Source: Pseudomonas sp. NC02 (GTDB lineage: Bacteria; Pseudomonadota; Gammaproteobacteria; Pseudomonadales; Pseudomonadaceae). From it: DNA of 64,000 nucleotides. Location of the stretch: NCBI RefSeq assembly GCF_002874965.1, contig NZ_CP025624.1:4030001-4094000 (forward strand). Reading direction: 5' to 3'. The position numbers and the translations under genes are program-made. The notes under the pieces were generated by a model. It ran no database searches. It was not told the origin of the DNA and saw only the letters and a program-made list of their open reading frames with translations. Shown here piece after piece: positions 21,943-34,176 of the stretch. Position 1 is the first letter of the stretch; the number at the start of each line of letters is the position of its first letter.

Positions 21943-22506
21943 TCAGGCGTGAGTTTCCAGGCGCAGGCGCCAACGGCCATTGAAGCGTAACTCGGTGGAT
22001 GACAGCGGTTCCACGTCGATCAGGTTGAACATGGCGGGTGGGCATTGCATGACATGCAGCAGCGCTGCGCGGATCACAAATGGATGCGTCACCGCCACGA
22101 CATGCCCCGGGGATTGCTCAAGGGACTGCAACCACTGCCCTATCCGCTCACACAGTTGCACTACCGACTCGCCGCCGTGGGGCGCCGAGGTGCTGTCGGT
22201 CAACCAGGCCTGAAGCGCTTCGGGTTCGGCCTGCTGAACCCCCTCGATCGCCAACCCTTGCCAGCGGCCAAAATCACAATCGCGCAGGGCTGTTTCAACC
22301 AAAGCATCGTCGGCAAACAGCGCCGCCGTCTGCCGGGTCCGCGCCTCCGGGCCGCACAGCACCAGGGGTGCACGCTTGAAGCGTTGCCCCTGGGAAAGCG
22401 CCGCCTGCTGCCAGTCCATCTCCACCGACTCATCCAGCGCAAAGCGTGCCTGTTTCTGGGCACGGGTGCTGGCGTGGGCAACAAGGGTCAAACGGGTGGC
22501 CTGCAT
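21943..22506 (-). CDS. Histidine phosphatase-family protein with altered RHG motif, cobalamin-linked
   Basis: A 187-residue protein of the histidine phosphatase fold. The catalytic RHG motif reads AHA (TLVAHASTRAQKQ), keeping the phospho-accepting His but not the Arg. The downstream PEARTRQTAALF and the second catalytic His in VAVTHPFVIRA are kept. Family members near cobalamin genes include CobC (alpha-ribazole phosphatase). Loss of the Arg leaves activity in doubt. It is co-directional with cobF and divergent from the riboswitch-controlled cbtBA. Confidence 0.75.
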   Translation of the reverse strand: MQATRLTLVAHASTRAQKQARFALDESVEMDWQQAALSQGQRFKRAPLVLCGPEARTRQTAALFADDALVETALRDCDFGRWQGLAIEGVQQAEPEALQAWLTDSTSAPHGGESVVQLCERIGQWLQSLEQSPGHVVAVTHPFVIRAALLHVMQCPPAMFNLIDVEPLSSTELRFNGRWRLRLETHA

Positions 22507-22559
22507 GACAAATCGCTCTGGTTTTAAGGTGCAGTCAGCGTAGACTTGCAAAGTTGTTT

Positions 22560-22690
22560 CAACATGTTTCAACCATTCTGCAACAGGAAGCCGGTTCAAT
22601 GCCGGCGCGGTCGCGCCACTGTATTCGGCCTTTTAGCCGTAAGCCAGACCCTGTTTCAGCCAACTCGCTATCCATTTCGGGACGCGTCAT
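22560..22690 (+). ncRNA. Cobalamin riboswitch upstream of cbtB
   Basis: The leader holds the conserved B12 elements: CAGGAAGCCGGTTCAATGCC (22583-22602), the B12 box core GCGCCACTG ending at 22621, and AAGCCAGACC (22641-22650). It ends 15 bases or so before the cbtB start, near its GGAGG site. Adenosylcobalamin binding would lower expression of the cobalt transporter genes. Outer limits are approximate. Confidence 0.88.
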
Positions 22691-22704
22691 CCCTGGAGGT
22701 TCTC

Positions 22705-22917
22705 ATGGCTTATACCGCTGCAACTGGCTCCGACGTTTCAATACCGTCCATTCCCCTGGGCGAAATCCTGCCCTGGGCGATCTTCGGCGGCCTGCTGCTA
22801 TTGCTCGCGATTTACTTCGTCGGCGCCGAGCAAGGCGCGACGGCCGTGTTCAAAGGCATGTACGTGCATGAGTTTGTGCATGACGGTCGCCACCTGCTGG
22901 GTTTCCCCTGCCATTGA
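22705..22917 (+). CDS. cbtB: Cobalt transporter subunit CbtB
   Basis: A 70-residue protein with one membrane helix (ILPWAIFGGLLLLLAIYFVG) and a His-rich C-terminus (HEFVHDGRHLLGFPCH), the hallmark of CbtB. With CbtA it forms a predicted cobalt uptake system in organisms with B12 synthesis. GGAGG lies before ATG 22705. Control is by the cobalamin riboswitch directly upstream, and cbtA starts 15 bases downstream. Confidence 0.92.
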   Translation: MAYTAATGSDVSIPSIPLGEILPWAIFGGLLLLLAIYFVGAEQGATAVFKGMYVHEFVHDGRHLLGFPCH

Positions 22918-22932
22918 TTGGAGCGTGACGAC

Positions 22933-23661
22933 ATGACAGGGCATTTACTCGTTCGCGGGATGCTGGTGGGCCTGCTCGCCGGCATCTTGGCCTTCGGCTT
23001 CGCCAAGACCTTTGGTGAGCCGCAGATCGACAAGGCCATCGCCTTCGAAGATCAGATGGCACAGATGCACGGCGATGCGCCGGAAGAAGAACTGGTGAGC
23101 CGCGAAGTACAAAGTACCTTCGGCCTGTTCACCGGCGTGGTGGTGTACAGCGTCTCCCTGGGTGGCATTTTCGCCTTGGTGTTCGCCTACTCCCTGGGCC
23201 GCATCGGCAAGGTCGGCCCCCGTGGCTTGGCAGCGCTGCTGGCATTGGCGGCGTTTGTGACGATCATCGTGGTGCCGGGGCTGAAGTATCCGGCCAACCC
23301 GCCATCGGTGGGCGACCCGGCCACCATCGCGCAACGCACCAAGCTGTTCTTCCTGATGCTGCTGGTGTCGGTGGCGGCTGCGGTGATTGCGATCAACGCG
23401 GCGCGCAAGCTGATTGCCAGCCGTGGCCTATGGGCAGGCGCGATCCTCGGTGTGGCGCTGTACATCGTGATCGTGTCGGTGGCCGGCAGCTTGTTCCCGA
23501 CCATCAACGAAGTGCCGGAACAGTTCTCGGCAGTGTTGCTGTGGAAATTCCGGGTGGCCTCCCTGGGGATTCAACTGGTGCTGTGGACCACCCTGGGCCT
23601 GGTGTTCGGCGCCGTGGCCGAGCGCAAGCTGAGCCAGCCTCAGGCGCGTCTCAATTCCTGA
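22933..23661 (+). CDS. cbtA: Cobalt transporter subunit CbtA
   Basis: A 242-residue membrane protein of about six helices, starting MTGHLLVRGMLVGLLAGIL. The family-typical FGLFTGVVVYSVSLGGIFALVF and VVPGLKYPANPPSVGDPATI are present. It is the permease-like partner of CbtB in cobalt uptake for cobalamin synthesis. The ATG at 22933 follows GGAG. It is in one transcription unit with cbtB under the B12 riboswitch. Confidence 0.92.
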   Translation: MTGHLLVRGMLVGLLAGILAFGFAKTFGEPQIDKAIAFEDQMAQMHGDAPEEELVSREVQSTFGLFTGVVVYSVSLGGIFALVFAYSLGRIGKVGPRGLAALLALAAFVTIIVVPGLKYPANPPSVGDPATIAQRTKLFFLMLLVSVAAAVIAINAARKLIASRGLWAGAILGVALYIVIVSVAGSLFPTINEVPEQFSAVLLWKFRVASLGIQLVLWTTLGLVFGAVAERKLSQPQARLNS

Positions 23662-24348: not shown

Positions 24349-25215
24349 ATGACCGACGCACTCAAGCCGCTGGATATCGACACCGTGCACGCCTTTGTCC
24401 TGGTCGCCGATTTCGCCAGCTTCACCCGCGCGGCCCAGGCACTGGACACCTCGCAGGCAGCCATCAGCCTCAAGCTCAAGCGCCTGGAAGAACGCCTCGG
24501 TTATCGCCTGCTGGTTCGTACACCGCGGCATGTGCGGCTGTCGCCCCAGGGCGAGCAGTTCATCGTCGCCGCCCGCGCATTGCTCAATGCCCACGAACGG
24601 GCGTTGGGTGACATGGGCAATGGCGCCCCCCGACGGTTGGTGATCGGCATCAGCGACCACGTGGCCGGGCCGGACCTGCCACTGTGGCTCAGCCGCCTGG
24701 CCGCCTATGACCCGCTGGTGATCCTGGAGGTGCGGATCGCTTCGTCCCGCGACCTGGTGGCGGCGTTCGACCGCAACGAACTGGACGCGGTGATCGTGCG
24801 CAACGAAGGCGATCGCCAAGACGGTGAGGTATTGGTGGTGGAGCGCTTTGGCTGGTTCGCCGCGCCTACCTGGCAGCACACGCCCGGCACGCCCCTGCGC
24901 ATGGCAACAATGGCCTCGCCCTGCGGCGTGCGACACCTGGCGGTGCGCGCGCTGGATGAGGCGCGGATTGACTGGACCGAAGTGTTTGTCGGCGGCGGCG
25001 TAATGGCGGTAGGTGCGGCAGTCAGCGCCGGCCTGGGTGTGGCGGCGCTGGCCCGGCGAGTGGCGCCGGCGGGCGCCGTAGACGTCAGCGAACAGTACGG
25101 ATTACCGGCATTGCCCGTCAGTGAAATCGTGCTGCATAGCCGAATCAGCGACGGCCGCTCCCGCGAGACATTGCGGGCGTTGAGCGCAACCTTCAGAGGG
25201 GTTCTGGAGCGTTAG
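24349..25215 (+). CDS. LysR-family regulator, divergent from DUF4865 gene
   Basis: A 288-residue LysR protein. The helix-turn-helix FVLVADFASFTRAAQAL followed by TSQAAISLKLKRLEERLG lies at about residues 14-45. The substrate-binding half follows (VIGISDHVAGPDLP near residue 98). Divergent orientation suggests it regulates the DUF4865 gene and itself. Its last 23 bases overlap the tail of the convergent EIIC-EAL gene. Confidence 0.86.
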   Translation: MTDALKPLDIDTVHAFVLVADFASFTRAAQALDTSQAAISLKLKRLEERLGYRLLVRTPRHVRLSPQGEQFIVAARALLNAHERALGDMGNGAPRRLVIGISDHVAGPDLPLWLSRLAAYDPLVILEVRIASSRDLVAAFDRNELDAVIVRNEGDRQDGEVLVVERFGWFAAPTWQHTPGTPLRMATMASPCGVRHLAVRALDEARIDWTEVFVGGGVMAVGAAVSAGLGVAALARRVAPAGAVDVSEQYGLPALPVSEIVLHSRISDGRSRETLRALSATFRGVLER

Positions 25216-27286
25216 ATTGCATCTGGGTATACCGCCCGCGCACGAACCGCTCCAGTTCATCGCCCGGCAGCGCCTTGCTGAAATACCAGCCCTGGATGAT
25301 CAGCTCCGAGCCCGACTGCAAAAACGCCAGTTGCTCGGCGGTTTCCACGCCCTCCACCACCACCCCGAGGTTCAACGCCTCACAGAACCGCAGCATCCCG
25401 GTCAACACCTGGGCGCCCTTTGGATCATGCTGGGCGACCACGAAACTGCGATCGATCTTGATGAAATCTACGGGGAACTGGTGCAGGTAACTCAGCGCTG
25501 AAAATCCGGTGCCGAAGTCGTCGATATACACCTTGGCACCAATCGCCTGGAGCTTCTCGATCATCTGCCGCGTGCCCTGGATATCGCCCACCAGCGCATC
25601 CTCAGTGATCTCCACCGAAACCTGCCCGTGGGCCTGGGCCAGTATTTCCACCAGCCGATCACCATACGCCGGGGTAGTCAGCGTGGCGCTGGAGATATTG
25701 ATCGTCATCGGCAAGGTAAACCCGACCTTCTGCCACTTCTGGTACTGGCGCACAGCCTGGGATGCCACCCACACATCCACGTCGGGCATCAACCTGGCAT
25801 GGGCCAGCCATTGCAGGAACTCCCAGGGTGAATGCACCGTACCTTCGGCGTCCCGGGCCCGCATCAACGCTTCGCAACCGGTGCATAGCCCGGTCCGGGT
25901 GGAAATCTGCGGCTGGAATTCGAGGTAGAACTCGTAGTCGCTGATCTGCTGGATATGGCTCAACTCGCTGACCTGGCGCGCCTGGGCCTTGTGGGACGCC
26001 ATCACCGGGTCCAGCTCCAGCAAGCGGCCTTTTTCTTCCAGGCCGCGAAAGGTCATGTCCAGCGACTTCAAATACACCGTGCCGCCCTCCGTGGCCTGGC
26101 GGTTGATCGCGCGCACATAGGGCGCATAGATCAGCATGCCTACCCCCAGCAACACCACCTGCAGCAACACTGCCGCAAGATCGCCGTGGGTGCTCAGGTA
26201 GGCGTTGAGCAACACCGGCGCAGTAAATGGCACGCTCACCACCGCAGGCGACACCCAGCCAATCTGCACCACCATCAACGCCAGTATCACGTTGAACGCC
26301 GGCACCACCAGAAAGGGAATGAACAGCCGCGGGTTAAGAATGATCGGCAAGCCAAACAACAGCACTTCACTGACATTGAACAACGACAACGGCAGGCTCG
26401 CCATCGCCACCAGTCGCATGGACCGGCTTTTGGAAAACAGCAGGATCGCCAGCAGCAGGCACAGGGCACCACCCGAACCGCCGATAAACGCGAAACTGCC
26501 CAGCAAGCCGCCATTCAGTAGATATTTGACCGGCTCGCCCGCGGCCACCGCCGCATTATTGAGCCCGACCGCCTGGTCCAGCACATCAAAAAACGGCTGC
26601 ATGGCGTAGACCCCATGGATCCCGAAAAACCACAGCAGCGAATTCATCAGGGTCACAAACAGGCCGCTGCCATAGGGCGTCTCCAGTGCATCGAGCACCT
26701 GCGGCCCCTGAAGCTGTGCCACCTGCGGAATCTGCAACAGCAACGACAGCACGAGCACCAGCCCGAGCGCCGTGATCGCCCCCGGCACCACCATATTGAG
26801 GGTGCCCTTGAGGTTGTGCCCCACCAGGTCTTCGTTGATCAACCGCGTCCAGCGACGCCGATGCAGCCAGGCGATGGCGGGCACATTGATCAGCGGTGAG
26901 GCGATGGCGATGAACAACACGAAGGTCGCCGAGGCTCGGGGAAAATCCCGCAGCACAAACGTGGCGATCACTACATGGGCCAGGCACAGGAACGCTACCG
27001 GAAGTTGCGGCAGGCGGTGCTGGATCGCGAGCATGTAACCGATGGAGGCTGCCACCAGCAGCGGGATCACCGAGCTGATCTGGTTGTGCAACCCCGCCAG
27101 GAAGGCCACCACCTGAGGGTCGAAACCCAGCACTCGGGCGCATTCGGACAGGACCAGGAAACCGGCCGATACCAGCAGGCACGGCAGGATCCACAACAGC
27201 CCCTCGCGTATGGCCCGCAACGACTCGGTACTGGCGAGGGCCGCCAGCCGCTGGGTGAAGAAAAGCTTGAACAGCGTTTGCGCCAT
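25193..27286 (-). CDS. PTS EIIC-like membrane sensor fused to an EAL c-di-GMP phosphodiesterase
   Basis: A 697-residue fusion. Residues about 20-390 form a Lac/cellobiose-type PTS EIIC membrane domain, with LLWFFGIHGVYAM and a sugar-site-like FNVSEVLLFGLPIILNP. Residues about 440-680 are an EAL domain with the metal and catalytic motifs CEALMR, NISSATL, VEITEDALVGD, IDDFGTG, IKIDRS and VEGVET, so it looks enzymatically active. There is no EIIA or EIIB domain. I infer a sugar-responsive c-di-GMP phosphodiesterase in the inner membrane. ATG 27286 follows AGGGACAGG; the longer frame to 27475 lacks domain support. Confidence 0.88.
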   Translation of the reverse strand: MAQTLFKLFFTQRLAALASTESLRAIREGLLWILPCLLVSAGFLVLSECARVLGFDPQVVAFLAGLHNQISSVIPLLVAASIGYMLAIQHRLPQLPVAFLCLAHVVIATFVLRDFPRASATFVLFIAIASPLINVPAIAWLHRRRWTRLINEDLVGHNLKGTLNMVVPGAITALGLVLVLSLLLQIPQVAQLQGPQVLDALETPYGSGLFVTLMNSLLWFFGIHGVYAMQPFFDVLDQAVGLNNAAVAAGEPVKYLLNGGLLGSFAFIGGSGGALCLLLAILLFSKSRSMRLVAMASLPLSLFNVSEVLLFGLPIILNPRLFIPFLVVPAFNVILALMVVQIGWVSPAVVSVPFTAPVLLNAYLSTHGDLAAVLLQVVLLGVGMLIYAPYVRAINRQATEGGTVYLKSLDMTFRGLEEKGRLLELDPVMASHKAQARQVSELSHIQQISDYEFYLEFQPQISTRTGLCTGCEALMRARDAEGTVHSPWEFLQWLAHARLMPDVDVWVASQAVRQYQKWQKVGFTLPMTINISSATLTTPAYGDRLVEILAQAHGQVSVEITEDALVGDIQGTRQMIEKLQAIGAKVYIDDFGTGFSALSYLHQFPVDFIKIDRSFVVAQHDPKGAQVLTGMLRFCEALNLGVVVEGVETAEQLAFLQSGSELIIQGWYFSKALPGDELERFVRGRYTQMQSNAPEPL

Positions 27287-27519
27287 CACCTGTCCCTCGG
27301 TCCCTGATGCCAGGGTCGCAAAATAACACCTGGCTGTCGCCTTATCACGGGGTAACGCTACACGCCCTGACACCGCAAGCGAAAGGCTTTTGCCGCCCCT
27401 GGCGCATTTATTCAGAATCACCGCAGGGGCTTGCTGCTTGTCGATTGGCTCGGGTTGGCCCATCCTTTGGCGCACTGGTTGTCGTAAAAAACGACGCCCC
27501 CCTCGAACGGACTCGACTG

Positions 27520-28836
27520 ATGCTGCGATTCACTCCCCTCATGGCCTGTGCGCTGCTTGGGCTGACCAGCCCGTTGGCCGGCGCCGCCACCCCGACCTTC
27601 GCCGATGCCCAGGCCAGCGACCCGGCCAGGCTGCAATGGATGGTCGGCGCACCGCCGCCGGCCGACCGCACCGTACGCTTTGAAGACGGCAGCTATTTCC
27701 GCTTCCCGGCGATGCGCTGGAGTGTCGCCAACTTTCGCCAATTGATGCCCACGGTTAACGTCTCCCGCGGGCTCGGCGCACCGCTGGCATTGCCACGCAA
27801 ACTCGACCCGGCACTCGACGCAATCCCCGTGCAGCCAGTGGGTGCAGCCCAGCCGCTGACCTGGCGCCAGGCCCTGGACGCCACCTACACCGATGGCATC
27901 GTGGTGATGCATCGCGGCACGGTGGTTTATGAGCGTTATTTCGGGGTGCTCAAGGAGGATGGGCAACACGCGGCCATGTCGGTCACCAAATCGGTGATCG
28001 GTACCCTGGGCGCGATGCTGGTGGCCGATGGCACCCTGGACCCACAGAAAAAGATCGTCGACTACGTGCCCGAACTCGGCGGTTCGGCCTTTGGCAGCGC
28101 CACCTTGCGCCAGGTGCTGGACATGACCACCGCCCTGGACTACAGCGAAGATTATGCCGACCCCAACGCCGAAGTCTGGGCCCACGCCCAGGCCGGCAAC
28201 CCGCTGCCCAAACCCAAGGACTACACCGGGCCGCGCAGCTACTACGAGTTCCTGCAAACGGTTAAGCAGCGCGGCGAACACGGGCGTGCCTTCGGCTACA
28301 AGACCGTCAATACCGACGTACTCGGCTGGGTGATTGCCCGCGCGACCGGGCGCAATGTCGCGCAACTGCTCAGCGAACGCATCTGGAGTCGGCTTGGCGC
28401 CGAACAGGACGCCTACTTCACCGTTGACTCCATCGGCACACCCTTCGCCGGTGGCGGCCTGAACACCGGGCTGCGGGACCTGGCCCGGTTTGCCGAGATG
28501 CTGCGCAACGGCGGGCGCTTCAATGGCCAGCAGATCGTGCCCGAAAACGTGGTGACGGATATTCGCCAGGGCGGCGACAAGCAGGCGTTCGCCCAGGCCG
28601 GCTACGCTCAATTGAAGGGCTGGAGCTATCGCAACATGTGGTGGGTAACCCACAATCCCGACGGTGCCTTCATGGCGCGTGGGGTGCATGGCCAGAGCAC
28701 CTACATCGACCCCAAGGCCGAAATGGTGATTGTTCGCTATGCCTCCCACCCGGTGGCCGGCAACGCCGCCAATGATGGGGTGACCTTGCCCGCCTATGCA
28801 GCCATGGCGGCTTTTTTAATGTCCAAGCCAGACTGA
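27520..28836 (+). CDS. Exported serine hydrolase of the beta-lactamase/6-aminohexanoate-dimer hydrolase type
   Basis: A 438-residue protein with a signal peptide (LMACALLGLTSPLAGAA). It is a class C-like serine hydrolase: the SxxK motif is SVTKS in AAMSVTKSVIGTLGA near residue 155, with a Tyr motif (GYKTVNTDVLGW) and HGQS near the C-terminus. It resembles NylB-like amide/ester hydrolases rather than true beta-lactamases; substrate unknown. ATG 27520 is chosen for the signal peptide, although its ribosome-binding site is weak. Confidence 0.8.
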   Translation: MLRFTPLMACALLGLTSPLAGAATPTFADAQASDPARLQWMVGAPPPADRTVRFEDGSYFRFPAMRWSVANFRQLMPTVNVSRGLGAPLALPRKLDPALDAIPVQPVGAAQPLTWRQALDATYTDGIVVMHRGTVVYERYFGVLKEDGQHAAMSVTKSVIGTLGAMLVADGTLDPQKKIVDYVPELGGSAFGSATLRQVLDMTTALDYSEDYADPNAEVWAHAQAGNPLPKPKDYTGPRSYYEFLQTVKQRGEHGRAFGYKTVNTDVLGWVIARATGRNVAQLLSERIWSRLGAEQDAYFTVDSIGTPFAGGGLNTGLRDLARFAEMLRNGGRFNGQQIVPENVVTDIRQGGDKQAFAQAGYAQLKGWSYRNMWWVTHNPDGAFMARGVHGQSTYIDPKAEMVIVRYASHPVAGNAANDGVTLPAYAAMAAFLMSKPD

Positions 28837-28863: not shown

Positions 28864-29193
28864 TTGTCCCAACCCGGCGAAAACCACCAGCTAGCCCTGG
28901 ACCGATTCTTGAGTGAACACCCGGCCCTGGCCGCGGAATTGAATACATTGAACCCCCTGGCGGCCCAGGCCAAAGGGGAAACCATGGAGCAGTACCGCGC
29001 CGAGCGCCTGCATGAAGCCTTCGAGGCAGAAGCGGAGCAACAGGGCTTGTTCGCCTGGGAACTGACGCTGAAATTGACGGCGCATTCCCCGGCGGAGTTC
29101 GAGGCGCAACGCCTTGAGGTGCACAAGGAGGTGGCGCAAATGGCAGGCCTGAGTTGGTTCGAGTATTGCCAGCTGCACGACTTGCCCGTCTAG
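28864..29193 (+). CDS. DUF6388-like small Pseudomonas protein
   Basis: A 109-residue, acidic, helix-rich protein with no signal peptide. It resembles the small DUF6388 proteins of Pseudomonas, of unknown function. It appears to start with TTG, eight bases after GTGGAG. Its stop codon TAG forms the palindrome CTAG with the stop codon of the convergent stk1 gene, so the two genes overlap by four bases. Confidence 0.65.
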   Translation: MSQPGENHQLALDRFLSEHPALAAELNTLNPLAAQAKGETMEQYRAERLHEAFEAEAEQQGLFAWELTLKLTAHSPAEFEAQRLEVHKEVAQMAGLSWFEYCQLHDLPV

Positions 29194-30068
29194 AACCAGC
29201 GGCCCAGGCCCTTCCTGCGATCAGCGAGCACCGCGCGTAATTCATCAAGAGTAACGGCCCTGCGTTCAGGGTCAGCCGTCAACGCCGTACGCAATACAGG
29301 CCAGCAATGGCGAGGCAGTTGCCTGGGCCGGGCCGGCCTGTCACTGGCGTGGCGTCGGCCTTGTGCCAACTCGTACAATACACAGGCCACTGCATACAGG
29401 TCGGCGCTGGCCGACAGTGCTCCGCCAGCCAGCAACTCCGGCGCGGCGTACGCGGGCGTCCAGGCATTGAAGCGGCTGCGACTCAAGCCTGGAGAACCTG
29501 CCGGGGCCTGTCCGCAAGCCTCGCCCAGACCGAAATCGAACAAGCGCAACCCGCCGTCTCCCACCATGACATTGGCGGGTTTCACATCCCCGTGCAGCAC
29601 ACCCTGCTGATGGCTATGGCGCAACGCGTCGAGCAATTGCACGGCGATGCCTTGCAGCGCTTGCCAGGGTAAACCGCCGGGGCACTCCAGCAGCAACCGG
29701 TCCAGGGTCATGCCCTGGAGCAGTTCCATGGTAAAGAATGCGATCTGGCCGGGAGCATCCACTTCAAATGAATACACACGCACCACCTGCTCATGCCGCA
29801 GGCTGCGGGTCAGGGCAAACTCGTTGTACAGCAACACGTGGGCATCCGCAGACTCGCGGATGGCTTCGCCCAACACCTTGATCGCGACACTGGAACAGGG
29901 TTCGCCAAACTGTTCGTGCAGCAGGTCCCGCGCACGATAGACCACGCCCATGCCGCCTGCGCCCAACACGCGCTCGATCAGGTACCGCCCGGCCAGCAAC
30001 TCGGGGGCTCCGTCGCGCGGTGGGTTTATCGGGGCCTTGGCAAAGGCAAAGTGGGTCAGGTCGCGCAT
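29190..30068 (-). CDS. stk1: T6SS-associated serine/threonine protein kinase Stk1
   Basis: A 292-residue Hanks-type kinase without a membrane segment. Glycine loop LGAGGMGVVYRARD (near residue 35), catalytic Lys in VAIKVLG, catalytic loop VLHGDVKPANV (HGD instead of HRD) and metal-binding FDFGLGE. In the P. aeruginosa H2 locus the same last gene encodes Stk1, which phosphorylates Fha2. Here it overlaps stp1 by 13 bases, making a kinase/phosphatase pair at the end of the T6SS operon. Confidence 0.9.
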   Translation of the reverse strand: MRDLTHFAFAKAPINPPRDGAPELLAGRYLIERVLGAGGMGVVYRARDLLHEQFGEPCSSVAIKVLGEAIRESADAHVLLYNEFALTRSLRHEQVVRVYSFEVDAPGQIAFFTMELLQGMTLDRLLLECPGGLPWQALQGIAVQLLDALRHSHQQGVLHGDVKPANVMVGDGGLRLFDFGLGEACGQAPAGSPGLSRSRFNAWTPAYAAPELLAGGALSASADLYAVACVLYELAQGRRHASDRPARPRQLPRHCWPVLRTALTADPERRAVTLDELRAVLADRRKGLGRWF

Positions 30069-30793
30069 GACTGCACCACCACAGCGGTCAGGTTGTCGCC
30101 GGCCGTGCCGCGCAAGACACCTGCAAACAGCTGGTCCAGGACACGTTGCGGGTTTCCCTGGCTCAAGGCCTGGCCCAACTCAGAGTGGCTAAGCGCCTGG
30201 TACAGGCCGTCGCTACACAACAGAAACACATCCCCTGCCAAGGTACCGAGTTCCAGGACCTGCGGGCTCAGTGGTGCCCGCGAGCCGATGGCCCGGGTCA
30301 AGGCCCGTGCGTCTGGATGGGCCCTGGCCTGTTCCGGGCTCACCTGCTGGTCAATCAATTGCTCACACAGCGAATGGTCTCGCGACAGCTGGTACAGCGT
30401 CTGCCCGCGCCACAGATAGCAACGACTGTCACCGGCCCAGACACACGCAGCGCGATCGCCCTGAAGCAACAACGCCACGACCGTGCTTCCCATGATGGCC
30501 TCGGCGCCATGGGAGGCCAGCGTCAATTCATCGCCCAGCCGCCGGTTGAGCCATTGCAGGCAACGACAGGTCGCCTCGACGCGTTCATCCAGGCTGCCCT
30601 GGCCGGGCAATGACGCCAGGCCATCGACCACCAGCTGGCTGGCGATGTCCCCCGCCTGATGCCCGCCCATCCCGTCCGCCACGGCCCAGCAGCCCGTCCC
30701 GGGGCAATCGAGAAAGGCATCCTCGTTGCGTAAACGGACCTTTCCACGGTCTGTGCGACCGGCGCTGTGCCAGCGGTCGCGAGGTTGGCTCAC
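30056..30793 (-). CDS. stp1: T6SS-associated PP2C-type phosphatase Stp1
   Basis: A 245-residue PP2C phosphatase. The metal-binding motifs are complete: RLRNEDAF, VADGMGGHQAGD, WAGDSRCYLW, LLCSDGLYQAL and GDNLTAVVV. It reverses Stk1 phosphorylation. The GTG at 30793 is chosen because GGAG precedes it by five bases and GTGA overlaps the tssM stop codon, showing translational coupling. A GTG ten codons upstream is possible but lacks a site. Confidence 0.9.
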   Translation of the reverse strand: MSQPRDRWHSAGRTDRGKVRLRNEDAFLDCPGTGCWAVADGMGGHQAGDIASQLVVDGLASLPGQGSLDERVEATCRCLQWLNRRLGDELTLASHGAEAIMGSTVVALLLQGDRAACVWAGDSRCYLWRGQTLYQLSRDHSLCEQLIDQQVSPEQARAHPDARALTRAIGSRAPLSPQVLELGTLAGDVFLLCSDGLYQALSHSELGQALSQGNPQRVLDQLFAGVLRGTAGDNLTAVVVQSCAT

Positions 30794-33700
30794 AACTGCT
30801 CCGGCAGGCGAAAAGTTCGCCACTGCGCCATCTGAAATGGATTGGGGGTGCGTCGGCTGGTCAGCAGGTAGTTGGCGCGCAAGCCTGCCAGGTCAGCCTT
30901 GAGGATCAGCTCATCCTGCCCGCTGGAGGGTTCGTTCTGCATCAAGTCGAACAAGCGAAACAGGGACCAGGCCCCGGTATTTTTTTCGAGCCCCAACGCC
31001 CGCTCGCTGCCCCGCTCCAGCACCAGGCTGCTGCGACCATTCTCAGCCTCGGCTGGCCATTGCATCGCCATGGGGACAATCGGCCCGTGCCGGTACTCCA
31101 TCTGCTGACCACCCAAACGCAAGACCGCGCGACTCACCGACGGGTCCAGGCTATAGGGCGCGAGCGTGAAACGAACCTGCAAGTCCCCCGGCTCATCCGC
31201 AAAAAAACCGCGCCTGATCACCTGCACCTTCGCCTGCTGGTCGAGCAACGCCCGAGACATCGGCAAGCTGCGCCCATCCAGGCTACGCAGCCTGTAGCGC
31301 CCGGAATCACCGCTGACGAAAGGCTTCAGATAGCTGTCAAAGAATCGCGCCATGATCCCCTCAGGCTTGAAAAACTCCTGGAAGTCGTTGAGGGAAACGT
31401 CGCTGCTGGCGTGGGCATTGAACGGGAAACGCAGCTTGATCGCCCTGCTGTAGAAACCATATACCTCGCTCTGATAACGCTGGTTCACATGCCGATAAGC
31501 CTGGTCGAGCAGGCGGCGCCAATGCTCGTCGGCCAGGCTTTCGAACCAGCCCGCCAGCGGCAGCGGCAAACGCGCGGCCACGTTGCGCAGGTTACTCAGC
31601 GCATCCTGTTGCCCCTGGATCCGCCGCTTGACCATCTCGAACGCGACCGGCTCCGGCGCGCCTTCGCGATTCAAGCTCGCCAACTGCAGGTGCAAGTCGT
31701 TGAGCGCCTGTAACACGCCGGTCAACTCGACTCCCGGGTTCTCATGGTTGTCCAGCAACTGGTGCAAGGGCTCGAAGCGGCGCTGCATGGCTCGCCGTGC
31801 GCTGTCGGGCAAGGCATTGACCAGCCCGGCGGCGGTCGGCAACCGCTCTGCCGCAGGTCCAGGCAGCTTGGCAGCCAGCTCGTCGAGGCGCTCACTGGCC
31901 GACGGCAGGCGCGTGTGGTCACGAACCTGCTGCAACAACTGCAACAACGGCGACTGGGCCGACGTCAAGCTGGCGAGCTGTTCGGCGCCTTGCCTGGAGT
32001 TTTCAGTTTCACGCAGGCCAACCTGCCCAAGCGCCTCGCTCCAGGCATCGGCATACTCGCTGAAGTAGCGTTGTTCAAGCTCCACCATCAACCGTTGCAA
32101 ATCCATGGCGCTCAGGTCGGCGCCCTCTCCCAGCACCCAGTTGTCCTGGACGATGGTGTTCACCAGCCGCGCGCCCTGCGCTTCAAAATGCCGCTGGTAC
32201 GTGCGGGTATAAAACCCCGGAATGGAACGCTCGCCCCCCTCAAACACCCGCCCGTGTGCAAGGCGCAACGGTTCAAGGCCGCGAGCTTGTTCGCGCAGCA
32301 CCCGGTACACCACGTCAACCAGCGATTCGCCGCGCAACACGTGGCGCGCGCGGGCCACCAGCTCGTCATCGAGCGGCTGCACGAACGGCTGCTCAAGCAA
32401 GCGCGCGAAATGTTCATTCAACCGGTTTTGCACGGAGGGCTCACCGGCAAACCGTACAGACCAATGCCCCGCCACCCGCTCACGCAGCCAGCCGACATCC
32501 CGCCGCTCCCGCAGGTTGAGCATCAGGTACGCCCGGAGGTTATCCAGCAGCCGTTCACGATCTTCCAGGCTGCCGCGAACCTGTTCCTGTAGCATCTCGC
32601 TGACCTGGGACAGCAACAGCCGCCCCAAGGCACGCTCGTAGGCCTGCTCCAGCACCGGACGGCTGATACTGCCCTGATACAACCCCATCCGCTCAACCAG
32701 CCTGGCTTCGCCCGGCAAGGGGAAAATCCGCGTGGCCGCCAGGCGGCTGTCCAGCAGCGGCAGGAGTGCCTGGGTAGCGTCTGACCCAGGCTGCACGGGT
32801 GCGGGCTGTCGTGCCAGCGCCTGCAGTTGCTCCAGACGTTGATGATTGGAGGAGTAACTGTGGGTCCACAGCAAGCCCGCCGCCACGACGACCACTAGCG
32901 CGCCCAGGGCCAGCCCCCCCTGGTGCTGGCGGATTCGACGGCGCTCCTGGCTATCGAGGTCCGCCAGGTCGGCTTGCGCCAGAATCACCCGGCTGAACAA
33001 GCCCTGGATAAAGTACGCACGTGGTTCAAGTGCCTGTGGGCCACCGTCGGCGCTGGTCAAGTAGAAACCACGAAAGCCGTTGGTGTGCTGATAACGCGGG
33101 CCGCAAAAAGCAACGTCGATATAGAGGCTCAGGCGCTCGCCAATCCGGGCCGCCTGATGGGGGAAGTCGAGCATCCGTCCGCGCAGATCACTGTTGCGTT
33201 CCTGGTGCAGGCGCTGCACAAGCTCACCGCTCAAGCGCTGCAGCAGTGCTTCAAACGCCTGTCGTACCTGGGCAATGCCAATACCCGCTTTGCCTGGGAC
33301 GATAGATTCGCCCAACACCGCATCACTGCCTTCGCCCAACGGCCGCTCGAAGAACTCCGCAAACCCCGGCAGGCGGTCGGCCTGGGTCACCACCAGGTAG
33401 ATCGGCACCTCCACATGCAACGTCTGGCGGATCTCCAGCAACCGACTCTGGACTGCCCGCGCCTCATTCTCCAGCTCACGCTCGCTGCCATGGAGTAATG
33501 TGTCCGTGGACAGCGCCACCACCACACCGTTGAGCGGGCGTGTCCGGCGCCGCACCTTGAGCAGCTCCAGCAGCGTCGACCAACCCGCGCCATCGACCTG
33601 GCTGTCAGGCTGGGTAAGGTAGCGGCCGGCGACGTCGAGCAACACGCCGTCCTCGGCGAAATGCCAGTTACAGTCCCGCGTGGCACCGCCCTGCGTCGCT

Positions 33701-34176
33701 ACCGACGCGCCCTGATCCTGGAGCAACTGCAAGCCACTGGCGGCCAACATCCGGGACTTGCCACTGCCTTCCTTGCCGATCAGCAAATACCAGGGCAATG
33801 CATTACGCCAACGCGGGCTGCGCTCACCATAAATCCGGGAGTGTTTCAGGGTGTACAAAGCGTCCTTGAAGCGACCGCGCAGGTGCCGCTGCTCGTTTTC
33901 AACCTGGCCTTTGCGCGGGCGTGGTTCGCCGTCATCGACGGTTGATTGCCGAGCCATACTGCGCCAATTGGCATACACCATCGCCAGGCCCCACAACAAA
34001 AACAGCCCGCTGATTGTCAGCAAGCGCGATGCCGCCGCTTGCCAGAATCGATAGTCGTCGACAGCCAGCAGTGGCCCGAAGAACCACACGGCCATTGCGA
34101 CCGCGAGCACCAGCAGCAGGCTCCAGACCCAAACCCTGCCCAGCACGGCGCCCGCGCTCCTGAAGAATGCGTTCAT
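30790..34176 (-). CDS. tssM: T6SS inner membrane protein TssM (IcmF)
   Basis: A 1128-residue IcmF-family protein, the usual length. Two N-terminal membrane helices (about 15-37 and 52-72), a cytoplasmic NTPase-like region with Walker A GKEGSGKS near residue 132, a third helix (GALVVVVAAGLLW, near 430) and a long periplasmic part ending in the IcmF C-terminal domain. With TssJ and TssL it forms the membrane complex that anchors the T6SS. It starts 15 bases after tssL. Confidence 0.95.
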   Translation of the reverse strand: MNAFFRSAGAVLGRVWVWSLLLVLAVAMAVWFFGPLLAVDDYRFWQAAASRLLTISGLFLLWGLAMVYANWRSMARQSTVDDGEPRPRKGQVENEQRHLRGRFKDALYTLKHSRIYGERSPRWRNALPWYLLIGKEGSGKSRMLAASGLQLLQDQGASVATQGGATRDCNWHFAEDGVLLDVAGRYLTQPDSQVDGAGWSTLLELLKVRRRTRPLNGVVVALSTDTLLHGSERELENEARAVQSRLLEIRQTLHVEVPIYLVVTQADRLPGFAEFFERPLGEGSDAVLGESIVPGKAGIGIAQVRQAFEALLQRLSGELVQRLHQERNSDLRGRMLDFPHQAARIGERLSLYIDVAFCGPRYQHTNGFRGFYLTSADGGPQALEPRAYFIQGLFSRVILAQADLADLDSQERRRIRQHQGGLALGALVVVVAAGLLWTHSYSSNHQRLEQLQALARQPAPVQPGSDATQALLPLLDSRLAATRIFPLPGEARLVERMGLYQGSISRPVLEQAYERALGRLLLSQVSEMLQEQVRGSLEDRERLLDNLRAYLMLNLRERRDVGWLRERVAGHWSVRFAGEPSVQNRLNEHFARLLEQPFVQPLDDELVARARHVLRGESLVDVVYRVLREQARGLEPLRLAHGRVFEGGERSIPGFYTRTYQRHFEAQGARLVNTIVQDNWVLGEGADLSAMDLQRLMVELEQRYFSEYADAWSEALGQVGLRETENSRQGAEQLASLTSAQSPLLQLLQQVRDHTRLPSASERLDELAAKLPGPAAERLPTAAGLVNALPDSARRAMQRRFEPLHQLLDNHENPGVELTGVLQALNDLHLQLASLNREGAPEPVAFEMVKRRIQGQQDALSNLRNVAARLPLPLAGWFESLADEHWRRLLDQAYRHVNQRYQSEVYGFYSRAIKLRFPFNAHASSDVSLNDFQEFFKPEGIMARFFDSYLKPFVSGDSGRYRLRSLDGRSLPMSRALLDQQAKVQVIRRGFFADEPGDLQVRFTLAPYSLDPSVSRAVLRLGGQQMEYRHGPIVPMAMQWPAEAENGRSSLVLERGSERALGLEKNTGAWSLFRLFDLMQNEPSSGQDELILKADLAGLRANYLLTSRRTPNPFQMAQWRTFRLPEQL

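Follow-up and report, generated by a model that had tools for sequence, protein, structure and literature searches.

A lactose/cellobiose-type EIIC domain fused to an EAL domain in Pseudomonas: a candidate PTS-independent sensor for c-di-GMP hydrolysis

Transporter domains can be joined to signalling enzymes, as in CbrA, where a transporter domain is fused to a histidine kinase. A phosphodiesterase that responds to sugar is PdeS (VC1710) of Vibrio cholerae, which is described, in the excerpts of its report at hand, as a PAS-EAL protein controlled via bound EIIA-Glc and the phosphorylation of EIIA-Glc (PMC6877527). The membrane component EIIC of the PTS appears in a review of 2022, the available passages of which place PTS_EIIC among the domains found with GGDEF, EAL or HD_5 and call it rare and a phosphoreceiver domain (PMC8846402). 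No functional study of any EIIC-EAL protein was found in the open-access literature searched, most subscription papers lying outside it. Here we describe such a protein encoded in a 64,000-nucleotide stretch of the Pseudomonas sp. NC02 genome (contig NZ_CP025624.1, positions 4,030,001 to 4,094,000; referred to as the window), together with its relatives.

The EIIC-EAL gene and its surroundings

The fusion gene is located on the minus strand of the window at 25193..27286 and consists of a single open frame of 697 aa that begins with ATG. An alternative start, GTG, lies upstream at 27475; the ATG at 27286 is favoured because the 119 other relatives among the best 120 of 607 database matches have lengths of 688-695 aa, and their alignments cover 98-99% of the 697-aa form. 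A sequence-only reading of this DNA had described an EIIC membrane domain joined to an EAL domain, with no EIIA or EIIB domain. This was borne out by a Pfam scan up to E 0.01, in which only PTS_EIIC (aa 28-329, minus strand 26300..27205; E 4.1e-24, 85.7 bits against a cut-off of 30.7) and EAL (aa 447-671, minus strand 25274..25948; E 4e-57, 193.7 bits against a cut-off of 31.3) were detected, and no EIIA, EIIB or PAS domain. The AlphaFold2 model of the protein was confident (pLDDT 89.1) and contained both an EIIC of the ChbC fold and an EAL fold. Within the linker (aa 401-446, minus strand 25949..26086) pLDDT values and DSSP indicated a segment of low confidence at about residues 403-425, followed by a predicted helix (427-449) that runs into the EAL domain.

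The closest subfamily of the EIIC half was that of the lactose/cellobiose permeases, with 167.3 bits each for TIGR00410 (aa 17-398, minus strand 26093-27238) and TIGR00359, scores that lie below the curated cut-offs of the two models (236 and 434, respectively). In phmmer this half matched the ChbC structure 3QNQ (E 3.2e-26), which was the sole PDB sequence matched up to E 0.1 and the only EIIC structure among the matches listed by Foldseek and VIA, the others being mostly EAL structures, so that we attach no weight to the absence of further EIICs there. Residue equivalences were counted by hand in the printed phmmer alignment. H224 of the GIHG motif (aa 222-225, minus strand 26612..26623) aligned with ChbC H250, and E307 of the FNVSEVLLFG motif (aa 303-312, minus strand 26351..26380) with ChbC E334, both of which we take to be sugar-contacting residues; the EIIC features that the earlier reading had associated with sugar binding are thus kept. 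The EAL half contained the motifs EALMR, INIS, VEITE, IDDFGTG, IKIDRS, VVEGVE and QGWYFS, in which the catalytic positions are presumably E472, N530, E559/E562, D589, D590, K610, E645 and Q665. A promoter scan found none, terminators were at chance level, and Rfam gave nothing at the gathering threshold.

The gene is flanked by a convergent LysR regulator (24349-25215), which overlaps the end of the fusion by 23 bases and has LrhA as its best NCBIfam match (123 bits, cut-off 530), and by a divergent serine hydrolase of the beta-lactamase family (27307-28836; Pfam PF00144). An internal start in the hydrolase frame that resembles the beginning of a signal peptide (about 27520) would leave a longer intergenic region. 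The interval 21943-23661 holds a CbtA cobalt transporter gene, preceded by a small frame that may be CbtB, and also a histidine phosphatase; alpha-ribazole phosphatase is among its NCBIfam matches, with a score under the cut-off. Beyond the adjoining hydrolase, type VI secretion genes were observed at 29190-34176 (IcmF/TssM of 1128 aa, a PP2C phosphatase and a Ser/Thr kinase). Among 10 loci from close relatives in the genus, 6 had a homologue of the window's IcmF close to the fusion gene, and the adjacency looks like a shared position and not a shared function. A wider survey covered 21 loci, and 20 neighbours from loci outside the close relatives were scanned for families. Neither a PTS gene nor a glycosidase gene was present among the 17 neighbours with a family, the other three having none; the families seen included PEP carboxylase, DNA polymerase II, class-I adenylate cyclase, two-component systems and others. 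We rejected the neighbourhood as a clue to the ligand, since the genes scanned give no hint of a sugar.

Distribution and origin of the architecture

At least 359 distinct proteins with both an EIIC and an EAL domain, the window protein included, were obtained from three database lists, the best 120 of each being used. The closest matches carried NCBI names such as 'EAL domain-containing protein', and the named ones all came from Pseudomonas or Pseudomonadales (best 120 of 607). A profile of seven diverged fusions led to Vibrio, Photobacterium, Marinobacterium, Achromobacter and Thauera (best 120 of 141). When a fusion from another class was used as the query, a second large family was found in Nisaea, Caballeronia, Paraburkholderia, Rhodocyclales, Paludibacterium and Pokkaliibacter (best 120 of 470). 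Longer forms were also seen in this last search: the precomputed database domains were PAS, EIIC and EAL in a protein of 942 aa (P0252), and PAS, EIIC, EAL and GGDEF in one of 1058 aa (P0287).

Proteins named by NCBI 'PTS sugar transporter subunit IIC/EAL domain-containing protein', from Pseudomonas, Vibrio, Achromobacter, Marinobacterium and others, have the same architecture; we saw no difference between them and the window protein, which is an ordinary member of the group. The novelty implied by the sequence-only reading was therefore overstated, given the number of such proteins in databases, the existing NCBI name and the listing of PTS_EIIC in the review. The architecture is already known and named, and what is added here is evidence on its mechanism.

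Among genomes of the same genus an orthologue was found in 51 of 298 (E <= 1e-120). A draw of 398 genomes across the phylum gave matches in 23, in 18 as a full-length fusion and in 5 over the EAL part only. A class-wide draw yielded a Lac-type EIIC (E <= 1e-15) in only 1 of 369 genomes, the window's own. One match to the Lac-type EIIC in another genus (G241) was not counted: it was split over two frames, had an apparent EIIB start and a glycosidase adjoining, and, as read from the sequence, probably belongs to a contaminating contig. Contig searches, the patterns of which lay in the EAL part, gave 80 kept loci, of which one was a fusion (L029, Pseudomonas piscis) and the others were matched by EAL alone. 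The distribution of the fusion is wide but patchy, and the draws disagree. Two genomes (G489 and G547) each contained three fusion-length EIIC frames (689-752 aa) beside 9 and 7 standalone Lac-type EIICs, respectively, the fusion having expanded there alongside full PTS systems.

The fusions fall into two types, referred to here as type 1 and type 2, and we compared trees of both domains with regard to their origin. The first EIIC tree had a branch that separated 26 fusions from 16 standalone EIICs (93/85). A 65-row EIIC tree with 49 fused EIICs and the 16 standalone rows, which come from five genomes only, separated type 1, type 2 and standalone EIICs into three groups (100/99, 100/100 and 98/93); it cannot be rooted and is undecisive on origin. 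The EAL trees were built with comparison domains that resemble the window's EAL. The first, with 23 fusions and 50 of 81 other EALs, united 22 of the fusions in a single clade (98/86) and placed the lone type-2 protein beside Bradyrhizobium EALs. The second had 65 rows, namely 17 type 1, 12 type 2 and 36 of 76 other EALs, six of them deliberately chosen, after the removal of five long-branch rows. Here type 1 and type 2 formed separate clades (100/93 and 100/100) with other EALs between them, and type 2 stood beside the EAL L088 (92/75), so that type 2 has a different nearest neighbour in each of the EAL trees. The two types were united in 0% of 200 bootstrap trees, and a single clade was not rejected by the AU test (p 0.17). 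As judged from these trees, two separate fusion events would be the favoured account.

PTS partners, pocket residues and the proposed mechanism

Four EIICs were found in the window's genome, namely that of the fusion and those of three EII systems which, by reading of their sequences, are N-acetylglucosamine-like, trehalose-like and fructose-type. EIIA-lac (PF02255) was absent from this genome up to E 0.1, and PTS_IIB (PF02302) was represented by two domains, both inside the fructose-type EII. Searches with these two families thus revealed no cognate EIIA-lac and EIIB for the fusion EIIC, which answers the proposal to look for lone EIIA or EIIB genes elsewhere in the genome, and many relatives gave the same picture. 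Of the 18 further fusion genomes examined, 14 came from the phylum draw and lie outside the genus, and 4 were taken from the 19 other same-genus genomes that had given a match. In 13 of them the fusion was the only TIGR00410 match (E <= 1e-10) and EIIA-lac was absent. The other five (G489, G547, G611, G617 and G636) had separate standalone Lac-type EIICs and EIIA-lac, so contact with the PTS is possible there. No PTS_IIB domain was detected (E <= 0.001) in 7 of the 13 genomes without EIIA-lac; in six of these the fusion was the only PF02378 EIIC and PF00367 EIIB was absent as well, and the seventh (G506) had one other EII. The searches covered PF02255, PF02302, PF02378 and PF00367, with mannose-family and other EII types outside their scope, and all four families gave matches in the controls E. 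coli, B. subtilis and L. lactis. By the known mechanism of the PTS, phosphorylating uptake requires an EIIB of the same class as the EIIC, and the EIIC must therefore serve another role in those genomes where no EIIB of its class is present.

Residue conservation was determined in 79 type-1 representatives below 80% identity, taken from 237 proteins that are mostly nearer relatives drawn from the best 120 matches of each search; 5 of 242 had been left out, four shorter than 640 aa and the divergent P0122. E307 and N304 were kept in 79/79 and H224 in 77/79 (2 N). All nine catalytic positions (E472, N530, E559, E562, D589, D590, K610, E645 and Q665) were unchanged in 79/79, in agreement with the earlier statement that the EAL half has all its main catalytic motifs. 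Among 23 fusions taken from whole genomes, which form a broader set, the E307 position was E in every protein and the H224 position was H in 18, N in 4 and Q in 1. For type 2 (75 representatives of 120 proteins) the E307 position was E in 65 and D in 10, the H224 position was H in 66, N in 5 and another residue in 4, and the listed EAL catalytic positions were unchanged in 75/75. The position aligned with ChbC W382 was F in 52, L in 23, W in 2 and another residue in 3 of 80 type-1 representatives, whereas W was present in 75/75 type-2 representatives and in 13/16 standalone EIICs. This alteration of the type-1 pocket suggests that type 1 and type 2 may bind different ligands.

Ratios of dN/dS against nine close orthologues were 0.063-0.120 for EIIC and 0.044-0.082 for EAL, and against a 61%-identical orthologue 0.348 and 0.248, respectively, values to be read with synonymous distances of 0.6-1.3 in both domains, which are near saturation. 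Both halves are under purifying selection. Since this is so and orthologues occur in about a sixth of the same-genus genomes, the fusion gene is not a chance joining.

The sequence-only reading took the EIIC for the sensory input of the enzyme, and the absence of cognate EIIA and EIIB together with the retained pocket signature and EAL motifs lends support to that idea. We assign a probability of roughly 0.6 to the reading that a permease has been turned into a PTS-independent sensor gating c-di-GMP hydrolysis, the protein being a membrane-bound phosphodiesterase with a Lac/cellobiose-type EIIC as its input. The input domain would derive from a Lac/cellobiose-type PTS permease, the old substrate pocket of which most likely continues to accommodate a small ligand, probably a di- or oligosaccharide. 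On binding its ligand the EIIC would move from one transport-like (elevator) conformation to another, a shift that the cytosolic linker with helix 427-449 may relay to the EAL domain. The activity of EAL domains usually depends on how two copies pair. Phosphodiesterase activity of this EAL domain, the direction of its change and the behaviour downstream, for which the sequence-only reading proposed control of biofilm or motility by a particular saccharide, are what we infer.

The EIIC could instead be a mere membrane anchor or dimerisation platform, or could sense the state of the membrane or a non-sugar solute, with the pocket residues persisting for structural reasons. This alternative we regard as doubtful, although several observations fit it. 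With F or L prevailing at the W382 equivalent of type 1 and H224 replaced by N or Q in 5 of the 23 broader-set fusions, the pocket is altered, perhaps to the point of no longer binding sugar, and the conserved pocket residues could reflect the fold instead of binding. Glycines and prolines account for many of the most conserved EIIC columns, and the scanned neighbours include no sugar genes. The residue following E307 was Pro in 0/80 type-1 representatives and in 16/16 standalone EIICs, which is weak evidence, as ChbC, named a transporter, has Met there and 7 of the 23 broader-set fusions retain Pro; as a mark of lost transport we dropped it for the same reason. An anchor, however, needs much less than the unchanged E307 and N304 and the nearly unchanged H224 of the 79 representatives, since a short membrane helix would be enough.

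We consider it rather improbable that the EIIC still transports by borrowing the phosphorylated EIIB of another PTS, so that uptake or the phosphorylation state of the PTS drives the EAL domain. The three other EIIC-bearing systems in the window's genome and the Lac-type EIIA in 5 of the 18 fusion genomes would allow for this, and the term phosphoreceiver domain, in the available passages of the review, agrees with it (PMC8846402). The seven genomes without PTS_IIB, six of which also lack PF00367 EIIB in the searches for these two EIIB families, argue against it. In the PTS, moreover, the phosphoryl group is carried by EIIA and EIIB, and EIIC carries none. A sensor is favoured over a transporter because several fusion genomes are without the partner proteins that such a permease needs. 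The flow of information could also be reversed, with the EAL domain serving as a receptor for c-di-GMP and controlling the EIIC, which would act as a facilitator. Some EAL proteins, such as FimX and LapD, do act as c-di-GMP receptors, but degenerate EAL receptors have lost catalytic residues, whereas these were unchanged here in all representatives of both types, and we hold this arrangement to be very unlikely.

Beyond the sensor reading of the single protein, we put forward tentatively, and with clearly less confidence, that EIIC-EAL proteins may form a class of PTS-independent sugar receptors. Having lost its phosphorylation partners, a PTS permease would have become a ligand-gated switch, probably on two occasions within Proteobacteria, with elevator position coupled to c-di-GMP hydrolysis even in bacteria that have no other EIIC of that superfamily. 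Such a class would be at odds with the published description of EIIC in c-di-GMP proteins as a phosphoreceiver, and the orphan genomes do speak against a phosphorelay for EIIC-EAL. If true, a specific nutrient would be linked to attachment or dispersal, and a transporter would have been reused as a receptor in genomes unable to use it for PTS transport. Owing to the orphan pattern the sensor hypothesis is sharp and easily tested, and the six genomes that have no EIIC of the superfamily besides the fusion are the strongest test beds. For many c-di-GMP enzymes the signal is not known; here, as a structure from the input family has been solved and the kind of ligand is known, a sugar panel offers a direct way to look for it.

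Comparison with known systems

The fusion EIIC resembles ChbC and the other Lac/cellobiose EIICs of TIGR00410 in its Pfam EIIC domain, the predicted ChbC fold, the His of GIHG and the Glu of FNxxE. It differs from them in its score (167.3 against 236 bits), in being fused to an EAL domain and in residing in a genome without cognate EIIA and EIIB. From the standalone Lac-type EIICs (n = 16, five genomes) the 49 fused EIICs are distinct in the tree (98/93). With CbrA the protein shares a transporter-like membrane domain as the input of a signalling enzyme; the transporter family and the output are different. PdeS, as far as the excerpts of its description go, is likewise an EAL enzyme under the control of sugar availability (PMC6877527). 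It has a PAS domain where the fusion has EIIC, and the fusion does not share the PAS-EAL architecture. PdeS is the nearest tested system and represents another route to the same kind of control.
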